From Pomacea canaliculata (lineage: Eukaryota > Mollusca > Gastropoda > Architaenioglossa > Ampullariidae): a stretch of DNA of 64,000 bases. How positions within the stretch are numbered: position 1 is the first letter of the stretch; the number at the start of each line of letters is the position of its first letter. The position numbers were made by a program, and so were the translations under genes. The notes under the pieces were generated by a model that did no database searches, was not told the origin of the DNA, and was given only the letters and a program-made list of their open reading frames with translations. Below are positions 39,213-57,873 of this stretch, in pieces. Where the stretch lies: the NCBI RefSeq assembly GCF_003073045.1, contig NC_037596.1:25952392-26016391 (forward strand), read 5' to 3'.

Positions 39213-41170
39213 AGCAGATAGGTTACATCGTCTGGTCTTGTCTGGTCGGGTCGGGTTGGGTCGGGTCGGGTCGGGTTGGGTTTTTTTACATTGTAAACGT
39301 AAAAAGGAATTTTACGTTATTTTTTCACTAGGAATCGCAATGAAAATTTGAAGCAAGTACAAAATCTTTGAGATTATCTGGTACTGAAAATTATCGTTTT
39401 GTATGCACATGATTTCGGCACGAATCATCCGAGAAGATATATAGGGTTTAATTTCTTTCACACAATCATTTGTTTTGAAATATTTTCACTAAAACATGAT
39501 TTTTTTTCTTGGAAATCCTTTCTTGGATGTTGTAATAATCGTATATAAGCTCCTATATTATTTTTAAGTATCAATGCATTTTTACGATTTTTACAGATTT
39601 ATAAGAACACTTGTTTTAATTGATTTTATGAATTATCAATGACATTCTCATTACTTGACAAAAAATGTATAGTTTATCTATCATGTATCTTTTCATCTCT
39701 CCTAATAGTCTCTTTATGAAAAGTAAATAGGGTGGGTGGATAGTAGATTGTTTCCACTATATTTTTCTATCCCTCCATCCACACTTATTACTGAGAATGC
39801 TTTCTAGTGCTAACAAAAAATGTGCTCTGCTATTTACACTTCTTATACTATTTATACTTGTCTACAAATACTGCTGCCTATACAACAGGGTGTATAATGG
39901 GACAGGATTTTTAGGTACATCACACTACAGTTCCAGATCGTCGAGACAAGGGGCTTAAACATGTGGAAGTAGCTGGTATTGCCGGAAGTCTGCTGCACAG
40001 CACCACTTTTAGATGCTGGTTATTTGATTAACACTGGGCGTGAGCAGCTTCATGATCTCTGATATTGGATTTCACTACCACTATAAAAGTACTGTATGTA
40101 TATGTATATATTGACATATGCACATACTGACATATATATTCATATTGTTTATGACCCACAAAAGGATGTCTTCACTGGTGTCATTTTTTATTTAACAAAT
40201 ATATGGATATTTATATAAAGAGAGAGTTTCCTGTTTCAGTAAGCAAAGCCTGTAGTCATACTTCCTCATGTGTTTCTATCCTATTTTGCTCCTTTGAATC
40301 CATCTTCAATATACTATTCTTCTTTGGTCGATTTATATTTTGTGCTGCAATTCATTGATCTTGTGATCTGTTTCTTGAGCACCTTTTTACACTGAAAATA
40401 AAGTTTTACCTTTACAAGCAATGCGTTCTCCTATTTTGCTAGAGTGTCATTTTAAAATATTACTCTTAACTCTTAGATGAGTCCTTTCTCATTCTACCTT
40501 CACATAAAATCTGGTGCAAAAAAATAACAAGTAAAGATAAGTAATTTTGCAATAGCTTAAACAGTTTGTTGATCATTAAGAGTAAAGATTTATAAATATT
40601 TATTTATATAAAGATTTTTAATACACACAGGTGTACAATAAAAAAATATATATATATATAATACGTCTTTAACAGGAATAAACAGTCTCATTTGAAAAGT
40701 AAGGGTTAGTAAATTCTGTAAATTTCTTTGTTTGAAGGAGCCATGCACTTTTAATTCCTATAATTCAGAATCAGTGAGATTTCTTAATTTTAAACTTTAT
40801 TAAAATTAAGGGGTAAATTTCGTGCTGTATTTAATGCAAGGAGAACAATCTGCCAAGAAAAATGTATGGAAATGTAAAAGTATAAAAGGTTATAAAGTAG
40901 TTAACGCGGATTGATAAAGGAGAACAGCCGAGAACATGAGTGGAATAGCACACCTTCCAAAAACAAGGTTCAGAACGTCAGGTCACGTGACCCAATAAAA
41001 CTCGGAAGTTGATGAGGACCACTAAACAGCTTCCTAGTAGCGATGCAAATGTGTCAGAGAAAAGCTATAAGTGAGCAATCAAATTCCCTGTCAACAAATA
41101 ACAAGTGATACTCCATCATTTTTATCCCGAATTTCTGCAGCGAAACTTTTTGTTTGAATTTTGAGAGTCG
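39213..41170. other. Intergenic region between loci 10 and 11
   Basis: A (TCGGG)n-type run lies at 39244-39281 just past the locus 10 stop. From about 40390 to 41160 the sequence is recognisably similar to 58985-59475 after locus 11 (shared GATTGATAAAG, CAGCTTCCTAGTAGC and TTCCTGTCAACAAATAA), so it is the duplicated 5' flank of subfamily B. A (TA)n run is at about 40646-40661. No exon was seen. Confidence 0.55.
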
Positions 41171-42787
41171 ATGGACGGCTGTTACGAAGAAGAGAGAAGA
41201 AGGAAAGTCAGAGGGATGCTCTCATACAGCGTAGAAGGCAATGAGGAATGGAGCAGGATACTGTTTGAAAAACTGTGGCCAACAATGGTGTTCATCGGAG
41301 TTCTGATTGCCGTGGGTGTCCCAGGTAACCTGCTCGTCTTCTGTGTTTACCTGAAGCGTTTTCGTCCCAGTGCCGCCAGAGTGTTCATCCTCGCCATGGC
41401 CGTGTGTGACTTCCTGACCAATGTCATCAGTCTGCCTTTGATGATTTTTCACCTGAAATACTTTTTCAACTCTGTAGATAACCCAACCTGCAAATTCATG
41501 CATGTTTCGTGGAGATTCACAACAGTCATGTCCACCGGGTTGCTGGTGTGTGTGGCCATTGACCGTCATCGTCGCATCTGTTTTCCTTTCAAGCAACAGA
41601 TCACACACCGACAAGCAATACTCATACTACCGTTCGTGGTGACAATAACTGTAATGCTTCTTTCTCCCTTTGTAGTGTTTTTCGGTAAGATGCATTGGGA
41701 CAACTCATCTGTGATTTGCTTTATTGAGGACCAGTATGTTGAGTCGCCATGGGTAGGACGAACTACAATGTTTCTGATAGCATATGTTGCTCTATTAGTG
41801 ATCATACTCATGATCTGCTACACCCACATCGTTTGCAGAGTTCAACGATTGAAGATGAACAGGCAGAGAATATGTAAAAACCAGCCAAATAAAGATGATC
41901 AACACTCGAAGTTTTCTTCTGATTATAACAAGCCGCAAGAAGCTTTGGATTCCCAGAACATCAGTTCTCATTCAGATGCGAATAAGGATAGCTTCAGTGT
42001 CATTTCTAGTCCAGAAACATCATCAGAGGAAACCTCCACGCAGACGACACAAGAAAGTCTCAAAACTGTTTTAAATGAGCAACTGTTACTTGAAATTCCA
42101 ACTGCTTCAACACCAGCAATAGAGACAACAGTTACATTACAAATGTCAGATAATTTGATCATGAAAAATACCACCAGTCCCCATCAAAGAGACGATTTGA
42201 CTTCAGAAAACCTCCCAACCTTAAGAGATACAGAGCAAGAAATGAAGGTTAATGAGCAAAACAAGTTGGCAAAGAAGGACAGAGGGCGGAAACAAGGACG
42301 ATTTTCTAAAACCACACTGATGATGCTCGTCCTCACCTTGACATCCATTGTCCTCTTCATTCCACACCTGATTATCGAGTAAGTAAAACTAATTTTGACA
42401 TAAATAATGTAATAATAACCGTTCATCTTTCTAAGAAACTAATTAGAAATAAATTTTTACTAAGAAATACAATATAAGTGAATTATATTTCTGACTGGCA
42501 GGGGGTAGCAAAACCCTAGTCCCCTATGTTGTGAGATTGCCGTTCTTTTTTTCTAATTTCTATAAAATTAAGCATTGCATTTCCGTAATCTCTTTAGGAA
42601 GAAAAAAAGTTGAAGAAAGCGTTAGAAGGAGCACTCTTGGCATATGTTTGAAAGAAAAAAGAGATTTAAATTATTCTGAATTCGGTAGATATTCTGATTA
42701 TGATGCAATTTGAAGTTTCGTTCAAGTCTACGTTCCTCGCCAGTAACTATTCTATAGTACGTGTAAGAAAAGTTTATTCGACATTCA

Positions 42788-42839
<52 letters not shown>

Positions 42840-45800
42840 CACCTAATACACCCAGCCGTTCCCGCGCTCAGTGCTATACTCATCCTCCAGCTCTCGGCAG
42901 TTACCCAGTACCTGTCACAGGCACTTGTCTGAAAGCTTTCAGAAGTGAGCCACGACATCATGGTCTGACGTCATCAACTAATCGGAACAACGGCTTCTTT
43001 GTTGCTCTTGCTGAAATTAAATTAATAAAAAATAAATATAAATTAAGTTATTTATAAATTAATTTATTAAATTAAATAATTAAAAATTTATTTTTTGTAT
43101 CTAATGTACGTTTGCAAGCTCTCATTGTTATTATTATTAGTTGTGAAGCAAATTTTGCTGCGACACTGGCAGATTTCCGGCCTGCAGATTGTATTCCGTT
43201 TGTGAAAGCGAAATTTACGTAGGATTTAAAATGCCAAAATTAAATTGTCGCTTTGTGGATTTATGTTGGTATGGAAAGGTTGCTTAGATGACGATATACC
43301 GTTAGTGAATTAATGCCAGGGCGTCATTCCGTGTCGATTCGTTTTCCTTTTCGAAAACCCGACTAGAAAAGGTCGAATTAAGCACCGAACGACAGAAGAT
43401 ACGATTATTAATTCTTTTTAAAAATGCAGCAGACGTTTTACAAAAGCAGAATTAATCAGCAAAAGATTTAACACATCGGCAAACACGAAATTGACAGAAT
43501 TCCTATACGTGTTTTCATGGTTTAACGAAGGGTCAACAACACATGCTATATCACTGGGAAAAGTGGTTATATTTACAATAAAGAGAAAAAAATTGTCTAA
43601 AGAGCTTTGTGAACTTTTTTAATATGTGAAAGTCTGTGTTGTTATCATTTTGATGAGGAGTACGGGTGGGGGGACGTCAGTCAGTGTCATTTGTTTTCCT
43701 TTTCCAAAGAGTTCCAAAACAAGTCCAGAATGCTTTCTAAAAAGTATAGAGGCGGGTCGCAAAAGCTGAAGAAAAAGGGGGGAAATGATATATTGTATGC
43801 ACTATAATACTATATTTTATCCTTAGTCTTTTAAGGTTTGATGTTTTTCTGGTACAAAGCAAGTATTTTTTTTTTAGACTAGTCATTTTATTGAAGGGAG
43901 TAGTCATTTCGATGTTTTCTCTCCTTAAAACAAAAACAAAACAAAACAAAAAAACAAAACCAAAATCTGGTTATTTCGAAAAGTAAAATTTAGAAATAAA
44001 ATGATACAAATATATAAAACATTTATAATATCACCAAGAAGAACTAATGTCAAAGCTAATGAAAACGAGAACCCCACTAATTCGTGTCTCCCTATTGTGA
44101 GCTCCTCCATTAGCCTCGGTGATTTTTCTCTCTTTTTTTAATTTTGTGAAGACGTGTGCACTTAATGAAGCATGCCACGGCCAAGAAAGTGGTATCCAGC
44201 TGCATATACGGTAAATTCGGGCAGGTTGGTAAACGTAAGGAACGATTTTCCGCGGTGGATGTGAGGAAATTGGAAAGTGAACTCTTCAACAGGGGCAAAA
44301 TGGACGTGTACGCACCCAACAACAGGAGGAACGTGACACCTTCCAGGATATTCTTCGAGATAGCAGGATGTATTAGAAAGTTAGTTCTATTCAATTCTTA
44401 CGAGACCAGGTGAAACTGGAGTCAGCAATCATAAGAAGAAAAAAAGTGTCCGAGGCTGAGGGCTGGAAAGATCTGCGAACAGGTCTTGTTCATGTCTACA
44501 TTGAAGAATTCAGACCTGCCACAAAAAAATGCAGCTTCTGTGGCTGTGCACAGGTCCCAGAGATTGTCTTGTGTCCTGATTGTTTACCTGGAAGACTATT
44601 GCAAATCATGTGATGAAAAGATCTACTGTTTGGTGATGTATCATCAGACATACAGTTGGAAAGAAGTAAGTACAATATATCAACATTTGTGGATATATAT
44701 ATTTTTATAATCTTTTAGATTGTTATGTAAATGTAAATATACACAATGGTATCGGCAATCTGAAAATATATTCTCTCAATATATATTTCTCTCTCTGTAA
44801 TATATATATAAGCACATGCTTCAGAAAATCAACTGAAAGGAATCAGAAATGTGGTAAGACTTAGCTAATGTAAGAACTGATACACCATTGTGCATTACAA
44901 TGCCATGGATTCTACTTTTGATGAGGTTTGAAACTTAAATAAATTCCATAATTTGATTATGGCATATTTATAGACTTGAATGCTGCAAGCTTATGTTAAA
45001 ACTTGCTATTGTTTTGTCAGGACGCATCATTGTATTTACCTGTGAAAAGAGAAGCAACCATTTTGTCTGAGCACCAGTGTGACAAGCTCTACTACCGTCA
45101 GATTGGAGTTTTTGATGCACAAGGTACATATGCAAAATTATTATGTTTTCTAGAAAAACAGATTTTACCCAAGCATTTCTTCTCAATTTTTTTTCACATT
45201 TTACTGTCATGCATTCAAAATATCACATTATGGAAGAACCTTGTCTTAACCAAAACAAACAAGCTTGTGAATAAATGTTAATAGATACCTAATGTGAATA
45301 AATGTTCGGAAGCCAGGACTTTCACCAGTGAGGGTTAGCTGTCCTGGGTTTTGCTTTCGTCTCGGGCATGCAATTCTTTTTCTTCGCATGTGACATCTGC
45401 TTACAGGGCTGTCTGCCTTGCCAGACTTTATATTTATTTATAACCTATTGGCACTTTTTGGTTTAATGATCTATAAATTATGTTTTCCTATGTTTACTTT
45501 TATTTTGCACTAACTGTTGAATGTCAGACAAAATAAATATATGAAATAGATTCAAAGAAATGGATACGTAATAATACAATTATAAACGAAAGCTCTAACT
45601 AGCTTTAATTTACAATTCTGAAAGGTAAGAATATTTACTTTACTGAATTACCTTAGGCTGGACTTTAACATGTAGTGTGGAAAGAAAAGAAGTAGGCAGC
45701 ATATTTCAACAATGAGAAGATGTTGCATAATATTTCTGTAAAGGTAGAACAGTATCAAATTCTAAAAGCACGTTTTATGTTCTTCTCTTTATTATTATAG

Positions 45801-48800
45801 GCAGAGATCACATCATGAAAGTACAGTTCTGTGAATGTGAGCCAGAAGCAGTAACACTAATAAGAAATGGCTTATGGCCAGCAACACCAAAGAAGCCAGG
45901 GACCGCATTTTGCATGAAAGTGATGGAGCTATGCAGAATGCTACAGTTAGAAGGACAAATGTCTCTCCAGAAATTTTGCATGGCATCGGAGCGGAGGACA
46001 ACTTTTCTACATAGTCGCAGCAGGACTACAGAAACATGTACAAGGCACTGGGTAAACATGCTATCATTTTGTCACAGCATGACTATAGCAACATGTACTA
46101 GACACTTGGTAAACACATCATAATGTGTTGTCAGCAGAGACTACAGAAACATGTACAAGGCACTGGGTAAACATGCTATCATATTTTGTCACAGCATGAC
46201 TACAGCAACATGTACAAGATACTTGCTAAACATATCGTCATATGTTGTCCAATAAGTCTAACTTTCAAGAAACTCCTCAGGGTATATTGCTTAATGACTC
46301 CATAGAGAACTGTATCAGTGCCACTAGACCTGTAGTCAAGTAGTGCGACAGTTTCATTTGATGGATGTAAATATAGTTTAATTATAAGGGTTATAAGCCA
46401 ATAATTTCAGTTTACATTATTTGGAAACTATGGAAAGAAGATAAGATAAGATAACTTTATTGTCCAGCAAAGGAGATGTGTCTTCCAGCATGCAAGCAGT
46501 CAGATAGAAAATCAAAAACAGCAACAATAACATCAGCAATGGCAGAAGTGAGCACGCACACACACACACACGCCCGTATCAAAAGGACAATACACCAGTT
46601 TCCATGACTACATAATATGTGGATTGTGAAAATGGTATTTTATGTGTTTGTTTAATTGTTTATTGTAGGTAACACAATTATAGAATTTCACCATCATCAG
46701 GTGTTATGTCTTGAGACAGCTCATGCCCATGACTTCCTGGGCAAGAAGTGCCCAATATGTAGTCTGGTATGTTGTATGGGTTAAGGATTAGGCATTTTAA
46801 GAAATATTTAAACACAGTTGCTGTATTCTGCAAACAAAAACACCCACAAAAGTTTATTACACTTGATTTGTACATAATATTTTCACATGGTTGCAATTTA
46901 AGTTTTTGAAAATATGCCTAATCTGTGCACATCAGTTTCCCGACGTTTTGATATAAAGAGAATTTATCGACATTGTCTAATGCCTACTGATAATTTTGGG
47001 CCATGTCTTTCAAAAACATATCTTCTATTTCATGAGGAATTAATAGATGTGATTAGTGATCTTCACTCAGATATCGATTCGAAATCTGGTGAAGACAATG
47101 AAGAGGAAGAACACTTTTTTCCATAAGTTGTTGAGCTATTACTTTCTTTAGTCAGTTTACTGAAGGGGACAATTGATATGTTTATTGAAATTGTAAAGGT
47201 ATTTAAGGGATGATAGCATGTTTATTTGTTTTAAAGCATTGCTACAACCAACATCAACAAAGGCTTTATGAATTCATTGCTACATTTTTGAACCAAGAAC
47301 GGTGTAACCTTCTAATTCTGTTTTTAGCAATGTACTTTTTTTTTTATAGTATACATACAAGACACATTCACACCGTGCATCCAGTTGCTTTCACCCACAG
47401 AAACAAGCCGTTTAATATATTTTATATGCCACTCTGGAGCAAGGCATGAGCTTATTCTTAAGTATATTGCTGTGGCACAATATATGTCTAGAGACTATCA
47501 TTTGAGAAAAGAATTGTACATAACAGTATACTGCCTTCTCATTGCTCATTCTCCTAAAAGTTTGAAGTGATGGTAGTAAATAAAACAGGGAAACAAACAC
47601 AGTTTTTGCTTTGAGGAAAATTAAGTGAAAAGAATTTTCACTCGTATATCATGTTATTTACTTACAACATATTCTTACTAAGGATGTTATATAAACAGGT
47701 ATGCTTTGTTATAAATCTTGAGAAATCTATTTTTGTGTTCTGCAATGGTGGTTACCTGTCAAGAGGGAGAAATGGCACATGGAAAAGGACATAGTCAAAT
47801 GTATAAATATGTGCAAATATCTAGATTTGATTGCTTTCAACAAGACTATCTGTTTGTTGTGCTATTGTGGATGTTTTATGGAGTGCCCAAAAAAAGTGTC
47901 ATTGGGATAACCATATGTTTTTGGCACATGGTGTGCATTCACCACTATTTTCATGTTTTTTCACATTTCTTGCATTTTGTGATCATTCAAAGTGACATTG
48001 CTACTATCCTGTCATGTCCCTTTTGTCCAGGTGTTGTAGAGTCGGTAATATATGAAAAAGATACAGGGTAGTGAGAAAGAAATGTAAACACTATTACCAT
48101 CTGCTTTCCAGTTATCCATGCTGGTAGAAAATACTGACAAGTTTGTAGTTAATAATGTAACTAATAACTGAATATTTGACTCTATACAGTTCGTCTAGAA
48201 CTCTAGATTATGATGTATGTTTTTGCATTGTATTGTATTGTGTATTGTTTGGATTCGGCTTGAAATATGCGGAAGGCCTTTTCCATAAATAAAATCAATA
48301 AATTGTTTCTTTCCCCGTATTTTGCATCTAGCAGGGAGACTTCTGAGGTCAGACAAACACTATCACTGTAAATCCACCGCTTGACCAAGCACGAATAGCT
48401 ATTTTACTGTACTTCATTAAAGTGTATGTTCAATAAATTGAAAAGGGCTTGAAAAACGAGAGTGTGGTATTGTAAATGAGAGACAAAATGTTACGCGCGC
48501 GTGTGTGTGTGTCTGCGCGCGTTTGTTTACAACGTATCATAGAAGTAGTAGGCTCTGGCTATGCTCGGGTTCGTGCCATTCTGGAGGAGTATGTGTCGGG
48601 GAAGGTAGCAGTTCCATTGGTGTACGGTGCCAACTACAGTGTATACAAATCGATGAACCCACGATTGCGATTGCACCGTGAACGCAAACGTGTGTGTGTT
48701 GATCGTGAGTGTGTTCGCGTGAACTGCTTTTCGACATGATCGGGGTCAATCACGATGGTGCCAACTGTCATCAGTAGTTGTATGTGTAGATCACTTCCAA

Positions 48801-51800
48801 CAGCGCCCTCTTATTGCTGTACATAAACACACACCGACTACACGAGCACAACATTGACAAGTTTTCGCAAACTGGCAAGATGGGTTGTTGCAGATTAGGG
48901 AAATCTTCAAAGGAGGTGAGAATCAAGCAGGCAATGTTCGAGAAGAATTAAAAAAATAGCACAATGCCACTAAAAGTTAAACCAGTTATATGTACTTTCA
49001 CACTACAATGGGTGTTCGTCAGAAAAATCACGCCACAAAAGACGACCACCTAACACCACATGCATCTGTATCTTTCTATTGATTACAGCGGGAAACTTTC
49101 CACTTTCATGACTTGTAAAAACTCATCTGCAATCGAATATCAAAGGGGCGTACAGTTTCGACCTCAAAGTGGTATCACGGATTTAGATATCCCAACAGCT
49201 GCGATAGTTGTGTGCGCACCGTGAACGTTGCTTGTTTGGGGGATGACTGGCAATGGGCAAACCAATGTTACAAGACTTTCCCTAGCTTGGCCGAATCTTG
49301 CGTTTGCTGGGAGTTATTCAGAAAAGAAAGGTTAAACAAAATGGTAAATTACACCTAATGTATAAGAGACAATACAGACAGAGAAAAGGGGGCAAAGACA
49401 GGAGTAGATGAGATACAGGAACAACAGACACACAAATAAACCCTAAATGCAAACTTGATACAAGAGGTCATCTTCCGTTCTAAAAGTAAGGTCAGACATG
49501 AAGGTCTTGGTTACTTCTGGGACTTTAACGTTTAACTTCTAATAATATAGAACTTTTTCGTAAATATATCATTTCTTAATATGTATTGGGTGTGTCTTTT
49601 CCCGCTACGAGACGGGCGGTCCCCGCGGGAGGAGAGGATGGAATCAGTCCAAGCGACGAGAGCCGTCCCGTGACACTTAAGACACCTATGACCACAAAAT
49701 AACAGCAAAACAGAAACTTATGTCAATGAGCAGCTAGTAGAGATAAGCAGCTTCCTTTAAGTGGAGGACAACCTTGTAGCATTGGAGTCATTGTAGAAAT
49801 TCTGGTTTTCCTTCGTCGGGTGCGTTATCTAATGTACCTAGCGTTGTGTTGGTGTGGGTTGTTTTTTTTGTTTTCTTTTTTTTTTTTTCTCATCTACTGC
49901 ACACCCGCACTTAGCCGACCTTAAATCTACAAAAGTCCCTGCATTGTACCCAACAAAAGTGTGTTTTCTTTGGTGCATTCTTCTGCTATGTCACAACTAC
50001 GGACAACACGAATCTCGTTCACTACAGTGATCAACGTTCAGCTCATTCGCACGACCAGGACATAAGTGCAACAAGCTAGCATTCTTGTGGACAGACATGT
50101 TCCCACAGGTAAATAGGTTTAAAGACAGATTTATTTACATTTCTCTCTCTCTCTCTCTCTCACACACACGCAACTGCTATTTCTATTCTAATCCACCTGC
50201 CTAGCCTACTGAATTCTAGCACCAAACTCCCGGGGCGGGTGAAGAGTTGCCACACATAAGTATGCCCGCGCGATTTTCTATTTTTATGTACCTATAAATC
50301 TGTTATTTGACTTGTGTTAAACAATCGTCGATTTGTTTTCATTGGAAGACTAATTGATTATTCATTCATATCTTTTTTTACACAATACTGTGGTATCGTC
50401 GGGGACATTGAGACAGTTCTTGCGCAAGTCTTGCATCATTCCTGCTGAGTGGCATGTTTAGCCCTATATTTTATGTTGGTTCTTCCTCAACCCTCATTGT
50501 CTTTGTCCTCACTCAAGGGTTTTCCAGAGGATGTTCTTCACTAAAGTCTTGTGGCTGGTTACATGGCCAGACAAGAGACGCTTTTCCCGTCGCCAGAAGG
50601 GGTTCTCGTTGGCCTATCATGATTCGCACATCTTCATTAGTCTTGTGATGAATAGAAGAAATTCGGAATTTCTCAGGCACTGGATCTCGAATGCTTTTAT
50701 TCGCTTTACAGACCGGTGAAAATGGTAAAAGAGATTATGAATTTCGAGTGTGTCTTTAGCATCCGTACTGGCTTCAAAGGTCAGCAGTAAGAAGACCGAA
50801 GTGATGAGAATCCACAACAAGCAGGAACTCCCAATCCAACTTCAAGGAGAGAACATCCTGGAAACAGACTGCTTCACGTATCTGAGGAGCATTGCCAACA
50901 GAGATGTTGGAACGGACGATGACATCAAAAAGGCCAGACATGCCTCTTTATTATTATCATCATCGTCATAATTATTGTAAACTTGTATAGCGCCATATTG
51001 CGGCCCTATGGCTCATGGCGCTTTGCGGGGGAAAAAAAAAACAACCCAACCTAACATACAAAATCGTTAACTACAGAATGACAGGCGAGATTAAAGATAT
51101 TTAGCAACAAGATGCGCCAGCGTGCGCATATCAACAGCCTACGCCCCATCCCGAGCATTCTCCTTCCGCAGTAAGACCCGCATCTTCAACACAATTGTGA
51201 AGGCAGTCCTACTGTATGGTTCTGAAACCTGGAGAGCGACATAGGCCATCTACACCATATAAAGGGAATAAGATGGACTGAAAAGATCTCCAACAGCAGC
51301 CTGTGCAAAAGAACCAACCATAATGCCACTAGTCAAGACATCAAAAAGCGCAAATGGGGCTGAACAGGACACACCCTGCGCAAACCACCTGACACCATTG
51401 CCAAGCAGGCACTTGACTGGAACCCTCAGGGAAAGAGGAGAGTTGGGAGACCGAAGCAGACTTGGAAAAGAACAGTAGAAAGTGAGACAAAGGATATCGG
51501 AACCACATGAACCCAAATGAGGCATGCTGCCCCAAACCGGGTCCGATGGCAAGGTGTTGTTGCGGCCTTATGTTCCTCGAGTAGTAACATGAACTAGACT
51601 AAACTTCGGCATCCGTACTATGTAGCAAACTGTATGATAGTGCTTCTGTAAGTCATGTTCAATGTGTCAATCGCTGCTGTGGCTGTTGCGATCCATGTGT
51701 TTCATTTGACGGTTTCGATCAAGAAGAGACCAAATACTAATATGTTGCTTAGGGAAAGTAAGCTGCATGAGGTCACCGAGGGGGCTATAGACGCCAAGTA

Positions 51801-54800
51801 TGTAATTAAAGCCAAGTTCAGTTGCTAAATATTCCGTCGTTATGCAGCATACCTATATATGTTTTACGAATTTGTGCTCTACTGTGTTATTGGATACTGT
51901 ATTATATACTGTCAAAGCGGCGCTAGAATAAAAGCTGGAGTCATAGCCACATAAGGTTCATGGTTCTTTATCATCCTCTGTTGTCTTGCCCGTCCTTCTT
52001 AAGCCGGAAATAGTGTAAGCATAACGGTTTTCAATTTTGTCCGCTGTTTGAATTATCTTTTTGTCAGCGCTGCTCGGTCTTTCTTTTAAATCACACCTTA
52101 AGATCTGACATCAAGATCAGTTCTAAAACTGTTTTTTTTTTCATCAGAAAGAAATTATCAATCAAAAAGATGAGGAAGAGGAAGAGGAAGAGGAGGAGGG
52201 GGAAACTGAGTCTGTTTTAAAGTTACAGATAAAGGCTGCAACCTCTTTCCACCATCCATACTTTTTGTTACACATTTACTTTGAGACACATTCAAAACAG
52301 GCAAAAGACATCAACTGCATATTTCTTCTGAAAACTGATATACACTTTTTAATCCCATGAAATGTTTTTATGTCCACATTGAAGAAGAAATTTTACAATG
52401 AGCGAAATATATTAATACAAATTTAAAACAAACGAAAAGAGAAAACAGCACACTGACTCCCATATATACATGACAGTATTGACTTGATGTATATGAATCA
52501 CATTTTACAATCTGCTGTTAGGACTGCAATGGAAAATCATTCAGCACTACTCTGCTCCAAAGCCAATGCAGTTACTGAAGCGCCAATATTTGTATGTATA
52601 GCCAGAAGTCACAATATGCAAGATGATTCATTATGTCTTATCTGACTAAATTTAAAGTGCATCCTAAGCTATGCACAAATGTAAACCACAAATAATAAAT
52701 GTTATTTTCTTTTCATTCTACTTTTATAAATTTTCTGGTCAATTTGATTCATATCAAAGAATTAATATCAAATTTAGCCAAAACTGGATTGTTCTGGCAA
52801 ATTTATTCAATTTCTATTGAACTGGGTATGTGATCAACGGCCCCAAGCTGTTTTCTTATGCTTTAACTGTAATTGCATCCCATGTGACTTGTGTTCCTGC
52901 ACACAGAGGTAAACAATGATATGTAACCTTGCATTTTTATAGTTACAAACAATCACATAAATATGCTTTGGAACAGACTGCACTGTAAGATTCAATATGA
53001 TAAAGATTGTGCTAATACTCATAAATAATAATAAACTCAAATAGCACCATATCCTAGCCTTTGGGCAAACTCATGATTGACACACACACACACACACAAG
53101 CATACATGGACGCACAGCATAAAATGCAAATTATATTGTCTACAAAATGCCACATGGGATAAAAAGTAGACCGAAATTATTCGCAGCATACATAATTCAG
53201 CTTGAGAAAGACTGTGATTCATCCAGGCTGCAAATGCTATGATCCACATTCCACACCACAGTTTCTACCATAGCAAGATCTATGAGGCCATTGTTCTGCT
53301 TATAGGTCTGACTGCAAAATGCCTTCTTGAAAAATCATACTGAAATCCAGGAAGTCAATGCAAATTCAGTGATGTAACAATTTTTAGGACACATTAGTTG
53401 TTAATAAGCACACTTATATAGCACCTTTCTCCATCATCAGCCACACTAAAAGCGCTTTACATGCATAAAGGCACACAAGCACAGGGATTTGGGACAGGCA
53501 TAACTATTGGTTTATTGGCTGTAAACCTAGGGGGCATAAGATTATATTAAAACAATCACACAATAACAATCTAACAGGTGCAACAAATGGTGACAATATG
53601 GCAAAATATATAGATGAGTACATAAGACAAAACAATATATGTATAGAATTTACTTCAACCGTGGTTATGCAATTTGAATCAATTTGCATAAATTTATAAG
53701 CATATTTTTGGATGTAATATTCATCAGCCAACGAAATTTAAATTCATTTGGATAATGCACAAAATAAACAGGAAGCAGCACTGTCTGTGACAAAGTTAGC
53801 AAAGGGTGAGCACAATAATAAGCATAAGTGAACACAACAAGAGGTCAAGAGCAAAACTAAAATCCTCCAAAAGCCTGTTCACAAGAAAGGACACAGAAAA
53901 TACTAATTTTCAGTCTTACTTTTGGCCTTTGGCAATTCCTTTAATGCAACTTCCAGAGAATTAGTATTTGTCCAATCTGTAACAGATTAACCACTGCTTG
54001 TATAAGAACTGCGAAGGCAACAAACTGATGAAATTCAGTGTTGTAAAGTCTGAAACCTAGTGAAAGTCTGAAACCTAGTGAAATGTAGACTCAATTATTA
54101 TGCCCAAGTTCAAAATAATTTTACAATAACTCTCACACATTGATTGTATGACACAGAAAGAAGAGAATGAGTGGATTTAAATAATAAAAAACATGCCATG
54201 ATCTGTGAGTTTAAAAGTATAAAAAATATTAAACATCTCAATATTGTATGGCAGGGTTACAGCTACTAATCTATTACTTGAATGTAATACATTTCATGTT
54301 TTCACCAGCTTTGGCTATGATTTGGAAATTAACATAGCAGTGATATAGAGAAAGCACTAATCTCAAGCTTTTGGAAAATATAATAGTAAATAAGAACTAA
54401 TAAAAAAAATAAGAACTAGTATTCCTTACATTAGAAAAGGTACTTCCATTAGGGATTTACAGTCAAATCTCCCTACTATGCCACCTACCGGGACCGAGCA
54501 AAAGTGGCATAGTAGCAAGAGTGGTATAGTAGCGAGGGTTCGTAAAAACGGCTTTATTTGTTCAAGTTACCCGTCAGTCCAAAGCCCTCAAGAATCGTCT
54601 GCTGGCACTAGCTGTCTCCTCTCATTCTCCCCCTTACCTCTTCATCCTCCACCCCTCCCAACCATATCCGCGCACCTGCATCCTGTCGCTAGTCGACCCC
54701 CTCCCGCTCTCCCTCTGTCACGTGACTGTCACCCGGCCAGCGACCACCACCCCCATCACCAGCCTCCACCCTCCCTGTGTGCATGCTATGTTCCATCCAC

Positions 54801-57799
54801 CTAACTGCGATGCCCCACACTACCATACAGTATAATAATCGAGCACTGCGTGGAATTTCACAACTTGTGCCTTTTAACAGTCACACAAAAGTGGCATAGT
54901 AGCGAGAGTCTGGGGTGGCATAGTAATTTTTTTTACATTGAATTTATAGTCGGGACCGAGCAAAAGTGGCATAATACCGAGAGTGGCATAGTAGCGGGGT
55001 GGCATAGTAGGGAGATTTGACTGTATTTAACTAATCAATTGCACTGACTAAAGAAAATCTATTACCCGAATAGTGAGCACAAATATTTTCCATCATCGTG
55101 GACTGCTCATTACTTGTTGGTACCATGAAAATACATCGATTCATAAAGATATCTAAAAATCTCAAGGCCTACACATTACAATGGGTATGTGTTTTAGTAT
55201 CCCCAAAAGCGCTTTTATAGGACTTCATTAGCTCTGCCCTAAGGACCATCCTTCTAGCTACATCTTGCTTTTACCCTTTGAGGTGCCCAGCATTGGTAGC
55301 CCTAAACAGCACAATTCCATAGGTCACTAGACACAGGTAAGCTACATAAAATGGTGTCAACCATAGGGGTAGAATAAACATATAAATTACTGGCCATTGC
55401 TCTAATACTGTACTTGCATATTGTAATACTTCTTGCATTTGGATCAACACTTTCGCTCAATTGACACCAACCATAAAGCATACTATTTGGCTGATTCTGC
55501 TTATCTGTCATCATCATACAATACATTCAGGCATCACCTGACTCGGGAATAATCTAAGATTATTGTATCAATCCCTAAAGATTCTTATAACACTTTACTA
55601 ACAAGTTATTATCTTTCTCATTCTTTCATGCCTACTTTAGCAGCTTGTACTTCTTTTTCTTTAATCGGTGGTAATGCATCCTTTCTATGAACTATATATA
55701 CATCTTAATATAGAATTATGTCATTAATACACTAAAAACTTTAAAAAGTAGGATGTAAGATAAGTAGAATAGAAAAGTGCTTCAACGCATGCAATTAATG
55801 TAGTATAATAGCTGCTGTACATGCTTGAGATAAAATAAACCTACCCTTCAGCCTTTTGCTGCAGAACACATTAAAAGCCGTGGTTCTTTTGAAAACTGGT
55901 TCCATTGTCTACACAAAAAAGAAATATTTGTCTGAAATGTATAGCTATGTATATCTCAATGTTACAAGGTATTGTCATTTTTGTTTTATTGGAATGAGTT
56001 AGACCTGATATGATGATAGCTCTTAATTATACCTCATCACTTTAGAACACAGGTTTCTGCTTGGCACATTACTATTACTATTACACATTACTATATATTT
56101 GTAGTGAATGTAGCATGACCACCACATTCACTAAAGTTATAATGTATAGCTATCAACAAGGTTACAACTGTTCCACAGTTTACAATAAATCAAAGATTCT
56201 GGTTTTGTGTTTGGACTTGGGATGTGGCTGTCAACTTTCTATACCTATTCAATTATTTTCTCTAATTATATATACAAACATATAAAAACATATATCGTCA
56301 TACTTTTCCCATATGAAATGCATATTTTTTACACTGTGTGCAGTTGAAAAGACTTGCAATAATTCCAAATTTTCTGTAGTCATGTCAAAAGGTCTCGTTA
56401 GAATTGAATAGAACTAACTTTCTAATACATACTGCTATCTCGAAGAATATCCTGGAAGGTGTCACGTTCCTCTTGTTGTTGGGTGCGTACACGTCCATAT
56501 TGCCCGTTCTCTTTCGCCGCATCCAACCCCTCACATCCACCGCTGAAAATCGTTCCATGCGTTTACGAACCTGCCCGAATTTACCCACAAAGACCGTATA
56601 TCCAGCTGGATACCACTTTCTTGGTCTTCACAAAATTAAAAAAAAAAGAGAGAAAAATCACCGAGACTAATGGAGGAGCTCACAACAGGGAGACACGAAT
56701 TAGTGGGGTTCTCGTTTTCATTAGCTTTGACATTAATTCTTCTTGGTGATATAATAAATGCTTTATCTATTTGTATCATTTTATTTCTTAATTTTACTTT
56801 TCGAAATAACCAGTTTTGGGTTTTGTTTTTCTTTTTTTTTGTTTTGTTTTGTTTTTGTTTGAAGGGGGAACATCGAAATGACTCCTCCCTTCAATAAAAT
56901 GACTAGTTTAAAAAAAATACTTGCTAATTTTGTACCAGAAAAAAAAATCAAACCTTAGAAGACTAAGGATAAAAATATAGTATTATAGTTATATAATATA
57001 TAATTTCTCCCCTTTTCCTTCTGCTTTTGTGACCCGCCTCTATACTTTTTATAAAGCATTCTGAATGTGTTTTGGAACTCTTTGGAAAGGGAAAACAAAT
57101 GACACTGACTGACGTCCCCCCACCCCTACTCCTCATCAAAACGATAACAACACAGAGTTTCACATATTAAAAAACTCCACAAAGCTCTTTAGACAATTAT
57201 TTTTCTTTTTATTATAAATATAAACACTTTTCCCAGTGCTATAGGCTATATATAGCCTGTGTTGTTGATACTTTGTTAAACCATGCAAGCATGTATAGGA
57301 ATTCTGTCAATTTGGTGTTTGCCGATGTGTTTAATCTTTTGCTGATTAATTCTGCTTTTGTAAAACGTCTGCTGCATTTTTAAAAACAATTAAAAATCGT
57401 ATGTTCTGTCGTTGGATCCTTGATAAATTAATTAAAACAACACTGTCTGTATTATCCGCTTTTGAAATTGGTCCGAATTTTTTGACTACCCGCAGTCAAA
57501 ATTAATTAAAATCTAATTCATCGTATTAAACATATATATTAATTAAAACAACGCTGTTTGTATTACCGAATATCCGCTGCACCGTATTAAACATATACAT
57601 TAATTAAAACAACGCTGTCTCTATTACCAATTATCCGCTTTTGAAATTGGTCCGAATTTTTAGTTGATGACGTCAGACCATGATGTCGTGGCTCACTTCT
57701 GAAAGCTTTCAGACAAGGGTCTGTGACAGGTACTGGGTAACTACCGAGAGCTGGAGGATGAGTATAGCACTGAGCGCGGGAACGGCTGGGTGTATTAGG

Positions 57800-57873
<74 letters not shown>

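Follow-up and report, generated by a model that had tools for sequence, protein, structure and literature searches.

Background

The DNA transposons of the KDZ (Kyakuja-Dileera-Zisupton) group are the described elements that most resemble the one treated here, and to our knowledge their transposases have been little studied biochemically. Fungal Kyakuja elements produce target site duplications (TSDs) of 7 bp, and TSDs of 8 bp are given for Zisupton and for a Dileera element (PMC12730594). The giant transposons of Ectocarpus, KDZ elements included, carry nested insertions that are fixed among copies (PMC12477816). How KDZ elements choose their targets is not described in the portions of the KDZ literature covered (PMC12730594, PMC12477816).

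Here we describe an element lying in a 64,000-nucleotide stretch of the genome of the gastropod Pomacea canaliculata (assembly GCF_003073045.1, contig NC_037596.1, positions 25,952,392 to 26,016,391; hereafter the window), where an earlier note, made from the sequence alone, had proposed a transposon inserted in a GAT microsatellite. It is likely, with a probability of about 0.82, that (GAT)n/(ATC)n trinucleotide microsatellites are the preferred integration sites of a lineage of cut-and-paste DNA transposons of KDZ type, and that the window element, of giant size and probably non-autonomous, belongs to that lineage. Positions outside the window are given as contig and position.

Copies of the element and the arrays at their ends

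The element spans 42840 to 57801 of the window on the forward strand (14,962 bp) and has the termini CACCTAATACACCC...GGGTGTATTAGGTG. Both ends were found exactly where the earlier note had placed them, with CACCTAATACACCC at 42840-42853 and its reverse complement ending at 57801. Runs of at least four GAT or ATC units occur at only two places in the 64-kb window; these are the two flanks of the element, and they have the same orientation, as would be expected if a single array was split by the insertion.

The note had also held that an absence of other copies would count against a transposon. The genome searched comprised 440 Mb (440,159,624 bases) in 24 contigs, and a 200-bp query from the end of the element found 26 places. 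The exact 14-bp terminus CACCTAATACACCC occurred 16 times at ten loci, when ~3 chance matches would be expected of a random 14-mer in 440 Mb, and all 16 occurrences were ends of one family, designated family I; TIR (terminal inverted repeat) sequence followed the terminus in 15 of them. When the window element was aligned with seven other copies, it matched those at C3:7.07, C3:39.26, C5:14.2 and C11:9.6 Mb over nearly the full length, and those at C11:5.55, C6:1.08 and C9:1.54 Mb over most of it. Most family I copies are ~13-15 kb long. The family is young, because seven interiors, that of the window element included, differ by only 0.9-2.3% (a 7.6-kb stretch, gaps not counted, with the C9 copy left out for its large insertion); in the interior tree the copy nearest to the window element is that at C3:7.07 Mb. 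A recent burst of DNA transposons has been reported in the published Pomacea canaliculata genome (PMC6129957).

At least seven perfect GAT/CAT units were present within 8 bases of the terminus at 13 of the 16 exact family I ends. The remaining ends have four units (C3:7084668), an imperfect GGATG-rich array (C3:7069927) and no array (C9:1565360). The 16 ends are partly dependent, two of them lying on one array and others being paired on one element. Genome-wide, runs of at least seven GAT/CAT units gave 29,005 overlapping matches (1,362 for a reversed-pattern control), and scaling from the 18 arrays found among 100 listed matches gives an estimated background of ~5,200 arrays that occupy 0.18 Mb, or ~0.04% of the genome. 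The arrays were not selected for, since the family I ends were located by their own sequence and the arrays formed no part of the query. A second family, described below, had arrays at 10 of the 11 ends examined. Insertion into microsatellites by chance is refuted by these proportions; at least two related families regularly use the GAT microsatellite as their target.

The idea that the array is a fixed part of the TIR was rejected, since arrays of both orientations are found at the ends (of the 16, 7 are GAT-inward and 8 are CAT-inward). At C11:5.56 Mb a single array is common to two copies of family I, and at C3:7.08 Mb and again at C6:8.38 Mb one GAT tract is bordered by an end of each family. 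Several of the flanks consist of long, imperfect tracts, which is what one would expect of old arrays that were present before the insertion.

A variant of the terminus was found at five places (none for the reversed control). Two of these are the ends of a 159-bp miniature inverted-repeat transposable element (MITE) at C4:34288087-34288245, which lies in a (CAC)n array beside (GAT)4. The others lie in a long (GAT)n, beside (ATC)5 and in a mixed GAT/ATC/CAC tract. Other trinucleotide arrays may thus be targets as well.

The junction register

Read from outside inward, the GAT-type ends of family I have the junction GATG|CACC in all seven cases, and the CAT-type ends have CATC|CACC in five of eight. 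Among six copies that split an array, both ends are in register in five (the window copy, C5 and C11:5.55, and family II C14, C11:23.40); in the sixth, at C2:38.09, the right array terminates in GGTGGTG. To judge from the phase in the split perfect arrays, this register would require a duplication of 1, 4, 7 or 10 bp (1 mod 3). A TSD of 7 bp fits and one of 8 bp does not, the exact length being concealed by the array; 10 bp, which falls within the 8-11 bp TSDs of Mutator-like elements, is also 1 mod 3.

A sister family with a KDZ transposase, and the coding content of the window element

On the far side of the GAT tracts adjoining the family I ends C3:7084668 and C6:8381807 lies a different terminus, CACCCGATGCGACCC, which defines family II. 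At 10 of the 11 family II ends examined, out of 22 terminus matches, there were at least ten GAT/CAT units, and at C6:26918283 there were none. CATCATC or GATGATG immediately precedes the terminus at 14 places (the search pattern here included the array); 10 of these belong to a set of 19 exact termini of family II, and those 10 are in perfect register. Family II copies at C9:13.41, C7:17.79 and C14:18.59 Mb have a KDZ core 4.7-4.8 kb from one end, and a three-frame scan of the C7 copy (L038) found a CxC2 match (E 2e-13) and a KDZ match (E 5e-20) in one frame. A Pfam scan of a further locus (L041) in one frame was uninformative, and a search of a phage collection gave nothing of use. The KDZ matches on the small contig C21 (63,879 bp) and at C7:14512214 have identical scores and extents, and C21 may be an alternative haplotype of the C7:14.51 Mb locus.

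A relative was also found at C3:8346931. Its end is 94% identical to the window TIR over 139 bp, CxC and KDZ exons lie ~1.7-4.2 kb inward of it, and its interior gave one protein-level match to the window element (45% over 51 amino acids).

The earlier note had described spliced exons with KDZ/CxC-like cysteine clusters inside the element and had proposed a profile search of them. The cysteine cluster was recovered as a match to the KDZ-associated CxC2 family (PF18803) that scores 50.3 bits against a cut-off of 27. The KDZ core (PF18758) was not: a six-frame Pfam scan of 44399-56502, with the open stretch in the left TIR (44150-44413) scanned on its own, gave only CxC and weak passenger matches, and none of the 17 places among the matches listed from a genome-wide KDZ profile search, in which the best candidates were scored, lies inside the window element. 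The same six-frame scan gave no Mutator-type match at E up to 0.1. Because the CxC2 exon is kept with no detectable KDZ core, the window element is probably a non-autonomous derivative of the KDZ lineage, moved in trans; most likely the 15-kb family lost its KDZ core, gained passengers and was mobilised in trans.

Copies with opposite flanking arrays

Of the 11 copies with arrays at both ends, six have the split arrangement (the window copy, C5:14.2, C11:5.55, C14:18.58, C11:23.40 and C2:38.09), and five have arrays of opposite orientation (C3:7.07, C3:39.26, C11:9.6, C9:13.41 and C21), this last number including short or imperfect arrays at C3:7.07 (both sides) and C11:9.6 (left), an assignment of C21 from the junction count only, and end pairs 22-23 kb apart at C9:13.41 and C21 that were taken as single elements. 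The total of 11 leaves aside C6:1.08, with its degenerate left terminus, C9:1.54 and C6:26.9, which have no array at one end, the copies with only one known end, and the MITE, which is of the split kind. Two of the five, C3:7069927-7084668 (GAT/GAT, the left array imperfect) and C3:39259315-39273947 (CAT/CAT), are mutually inverted and reciprocal, as expected if one 32-Mb inversion had arisen by recombination between copies, or from an assembly join.

The favoured explanation and its alternatives

In the explanation that we favour, a transposase from KDZ-encoding relatives (family II or, for example, the element at C3:8.35 Mb) would act on a common end region and would make a staggered cut at a fixed position of the GAT unit, one strand being cut before CATCATC and the other before GATGATG. 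Joining of the two CA...TG ends would follow, and the resulting duplication, of 7 bp or some other length that is 1 mod 3, would vanish into the array. Since such a 7-bp cut would be made within a single GAT array, each copy would acquire one GAT-type and one CAT-type end. Mobilisation would be of the cut-and-paste type and in trans, GAT DNA may be recognised directly, perhaps by the CxC zinc cluster, and landing in non-coding repeats would presumably benefit the element.

Several observations weigh against this explanation. Opposite flanks in 5 of the 11 two-array copies cannot be given by simple insertion into one array, and pre-existing palindromic GAT arrays were rejected as their general cause, since the pattern (CAT)5N0-30(GAT)5, with spacers of up to 30 bp, was found at only one place in the genome. 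There is no array at 2 of the 27 ends read in the two families (C9:1565360 and C6:26918283). Three of the eight CAT-type family I ends are displaced by one or two bases, and the perfect 7-base register is missing at 9 of 19 exact family II termini; five of these nine were read, and they comprise three arrays with an imperfect last unit, one imperfect tract and one end with no array. In the relative at C3:8.35 Mb, which connects the window TIR with a KDZ core, the outermost 14 bp are missing and the array directly adjoins the TIR; a nucleotide comparison of the interior of this relative with the window element gave no match. That a KDZ protein would move the window element or contact GAT DNA is a prediction of this explanation, and the length of the TSD, like the presence of an array before each insertion, is judged indirectly, from the inserted copies.

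The opposite flanks could be accommodated by an addition to the favoured explanation, namely that these copies arose by ectopic recombination between inverted copies or from assembly joins at 15-kb repeats, to which we give an even chance. The reciprocal, inverted pair at C3:7.07 and C3:39.26 Mb, as a single 32-Mb inversion would leave it, argues for this, as does the finding that Galileo copies have produced inversions by ectopic recombination (PMC4168063). However, five in 11 is a high rate, and no clear reciprocal partner was found for C11:9.6, C9:13.41 or C21; the copy at C6:1.08 Mb, the left terminus of which is degenerate, may be GAT/GAT. A more far-reaching proposal is that a KDZ lineage evolved GAT-specific integration by way of its transposase or CxC zinc cluster and that its long-TIR giants seed inversions, nearly half of the large two-array copies bridging formerly separate arrays, and this we advance only tentatively, thinking it somewhat doubtful as a whole.

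The flanking arrays would have a different history if the element entered a short GAT-like target (e.g. CATCATC) and slippage at the duplicated 7-mer then lengthened each flank. In maize, TAFT(A) has short TA targets that have grown to as much as (TA)50, according to the SaTar paper (PMC5907723), and if the two flanks of a copy grew separately, the symmetry in the opposite-orientation copies could be relaxed. We nevertheless consider growth after insertion to be improbable, given that the GAT-rich tracts on several flanks are interrupted and imperfect, one of them being >300 bp long, that two elements share one intervening array and that arrays of at least seven units are already present in the genome in an estimated number of 5,200; the model would, besides, still need a GAT-like target choice. 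Even less credit is due to the model put forward for SaTar, in which a microsatellite carried by an element in circular or excised form recombines homologously with an array in the chromosome, so that entry is not by transposase cut-and-paste. For SaTar, too, there are reports of flanks that do not agree with a TSD and of modular elements lying side by side (PMC5907723), but the common junction register seen here is what a transposase would leave, and recombination within arrays should leave the flanks co-oriented, so that the opposite flanks would be unexplained by it too.

Structure of the window element and its surroundings

The features of the element and its insertion site are collected in Table 1. 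The inverted arms were detected by a repeat search and then aligned. The size given in the earlier note, ~15 kb with TIRs of ~1.5 kb, was close to what we found (TIRs of ~1.4-1.6 kb), but the TIRs are interrupted and asymmetric, because a poorly aligning stretch (~42985-43375 on the left, 57655-57425 on the right) separates the outermost 141 bp, 97.9% identical between the arms, from an inner kilobase (43377-44407 vs 56391-57424) of ~86% identity. Open stretches at 44150-44413 and 56385-56627 in the two TIRs are possibly the first transposase exon, copied to the far TIR as the TIR lengthened. The number of tandem units near the end of the CxC open stretch appears to differ between copies. A weak DUF6451 match, together with an open frame at 50741-50971 that we take to be reverse transcriptase-like, suggests a passenger LINE (long interspersed nuclear element) fragment.

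Three details of the copies may be mentioned. A segment of ~174 bp in the window (46440-46613) is a gap in the alignments to most other copies and is perhaps a later small insertion. The one exact family I end that is not followed by TIR sequence, C11:5561670, has its terminus joined directly to interior sequence matching the window from 44498 onwards, so that at the right end of one copy (C11:5561657-5561747) only the 14 terminal bp precede the base that corresponds to window 44498. That internal base is also where the alignment of the C6:1.08-Mb copy starts, and this joint possibly goes back to a short-TIR ancestor or to a deletion that has happened repeatedly.

The split array lies in an intron of a rhodopsin-type receptor gene, identified by the match of the first of the two flanking exons to Pfam 7tm_1; the short last exon, searched alone, gave no match. 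The exon junction (...42378|GTAAG ... CAG|57981...) reads in frame, and the exons are thus in phase, with a good donor and acceptor, as the earlier note had it. By subtraction, the intron without the element would be ~0.64 kb long.

Table 1. Features of the window element, its target array and the host gene (positions in the 64,000-nucleotide window)
Feature	Position	Strand	Evidence or remark
Whole element	42840..57801	+	Exact termini, repeat search, alignments to other copies
Left TIR	42840..44407	+	Interrupted at ~42985-43375, where the alignment to the right TIR is poor
Right TIR	56391..57801	-	Repeat search and alignments
(GAT)17, left portion of split target array	42788..42838	+	Run search of the window
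(GAT)23, right portion of split target array	57802..57870	+	Run search of the window
Host receptor exon, 7tm_1	41165..42378	+	Pfam E 7e-25; donor GTAAGT at 42379; start codon provisional
Last exon of host receptor, from NPFIY region to stop codon	57981..58173	+	In frame with preceding exon
CxC2-type cysteine cluster, open stretch	45731..46123	+	PF18803, E 3e-13; also CxC1 and CxC3
Open stretch in left TIR	44150..44413	+	73% amino acid identity over 70 amino acids to right-TIR copy within 56385-56627 (-)
Four tandem repeat units, spacing 57-59 bp	46009..46249	+	3' end of CxC open stretch
Weak DUF6451 match	51149..51217	+	25.7 bits, under its cut-off of 28

Significance and comparison with known systems

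A defined GAT target, a common cut register and young copies would make the target choice of KDZ elements directly testable, and the lineage could supply an enzyme for targeted integration. If the opposite-orientation copies do mark inversions, the family would tie together microsatellites, long-TIR transposons and genome rearrangement. No report of microsatellite targeting by KDZ elements, or of GAT repeats as a transposon target, was found in our searches of the open-licence PMC literature, which leaves outside it the Repbase reports and the 2012 Zisupton paper.

With the KDZ group the lineage shares the CxC2 cluster of the window element, the PF18758 core of its relatives and the CA...TG ends, as well as a giant size with passengers, which reaches 30.3 kb in Ectocarpus (PMC12477816). 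The 7-bp TSD of fungal Kyakuja would fit the junctions found here, whereas the 8-bp TSDs of Zisupton and Dileera do not fit the phase in a perfect array (PMC12730594). The fungal Kyakuja elements are, however, described as having no TIRs (PMC12730594), in contrast to the 1.4-1.6 kb TIRs found here, and microsatellite targeting is not mentioned in the portions of the KDZ literature covered.

In their habit of insertion, the nearest counterparts are MuTAnT, SaTar, Ac-mMITE and Micron, which are TIR elements that enter microsatellites (PMC4486113, PMC5907723, PMC8449440), the likeness to Micron being drawn from a title cited in PMC8449440. Side-by-side clusters are known for SaTar and Ac-mMITE as well (PMC5907723, PMC8449440), and the flanks of SaTar are often inconsistent with a plain TSD (PMC5907723). 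These four are elements of plants, are Mutator-like where they have been assigned and enter mainly (TA)n, unlike the present lineage of an animal genome, which is of KDZ type and enters (GAT)n; its relatives encode KDZ, which sets it apart from the Mutator-like SaTar and MuTAnT. Families of CryptonV are likewise DNA transposons, and a specific insertion into microsatellites has been stated for them (PMC8869645), but they use a tyrosine recombinase where KDZ is found here. Among target-specific DNA transposons of animals, Dada has TSDs of 6-7 bp (PMC3706591) but differs in targeting snRNA and tRNA genes and in having a DDE-type transposase of another superfamily.

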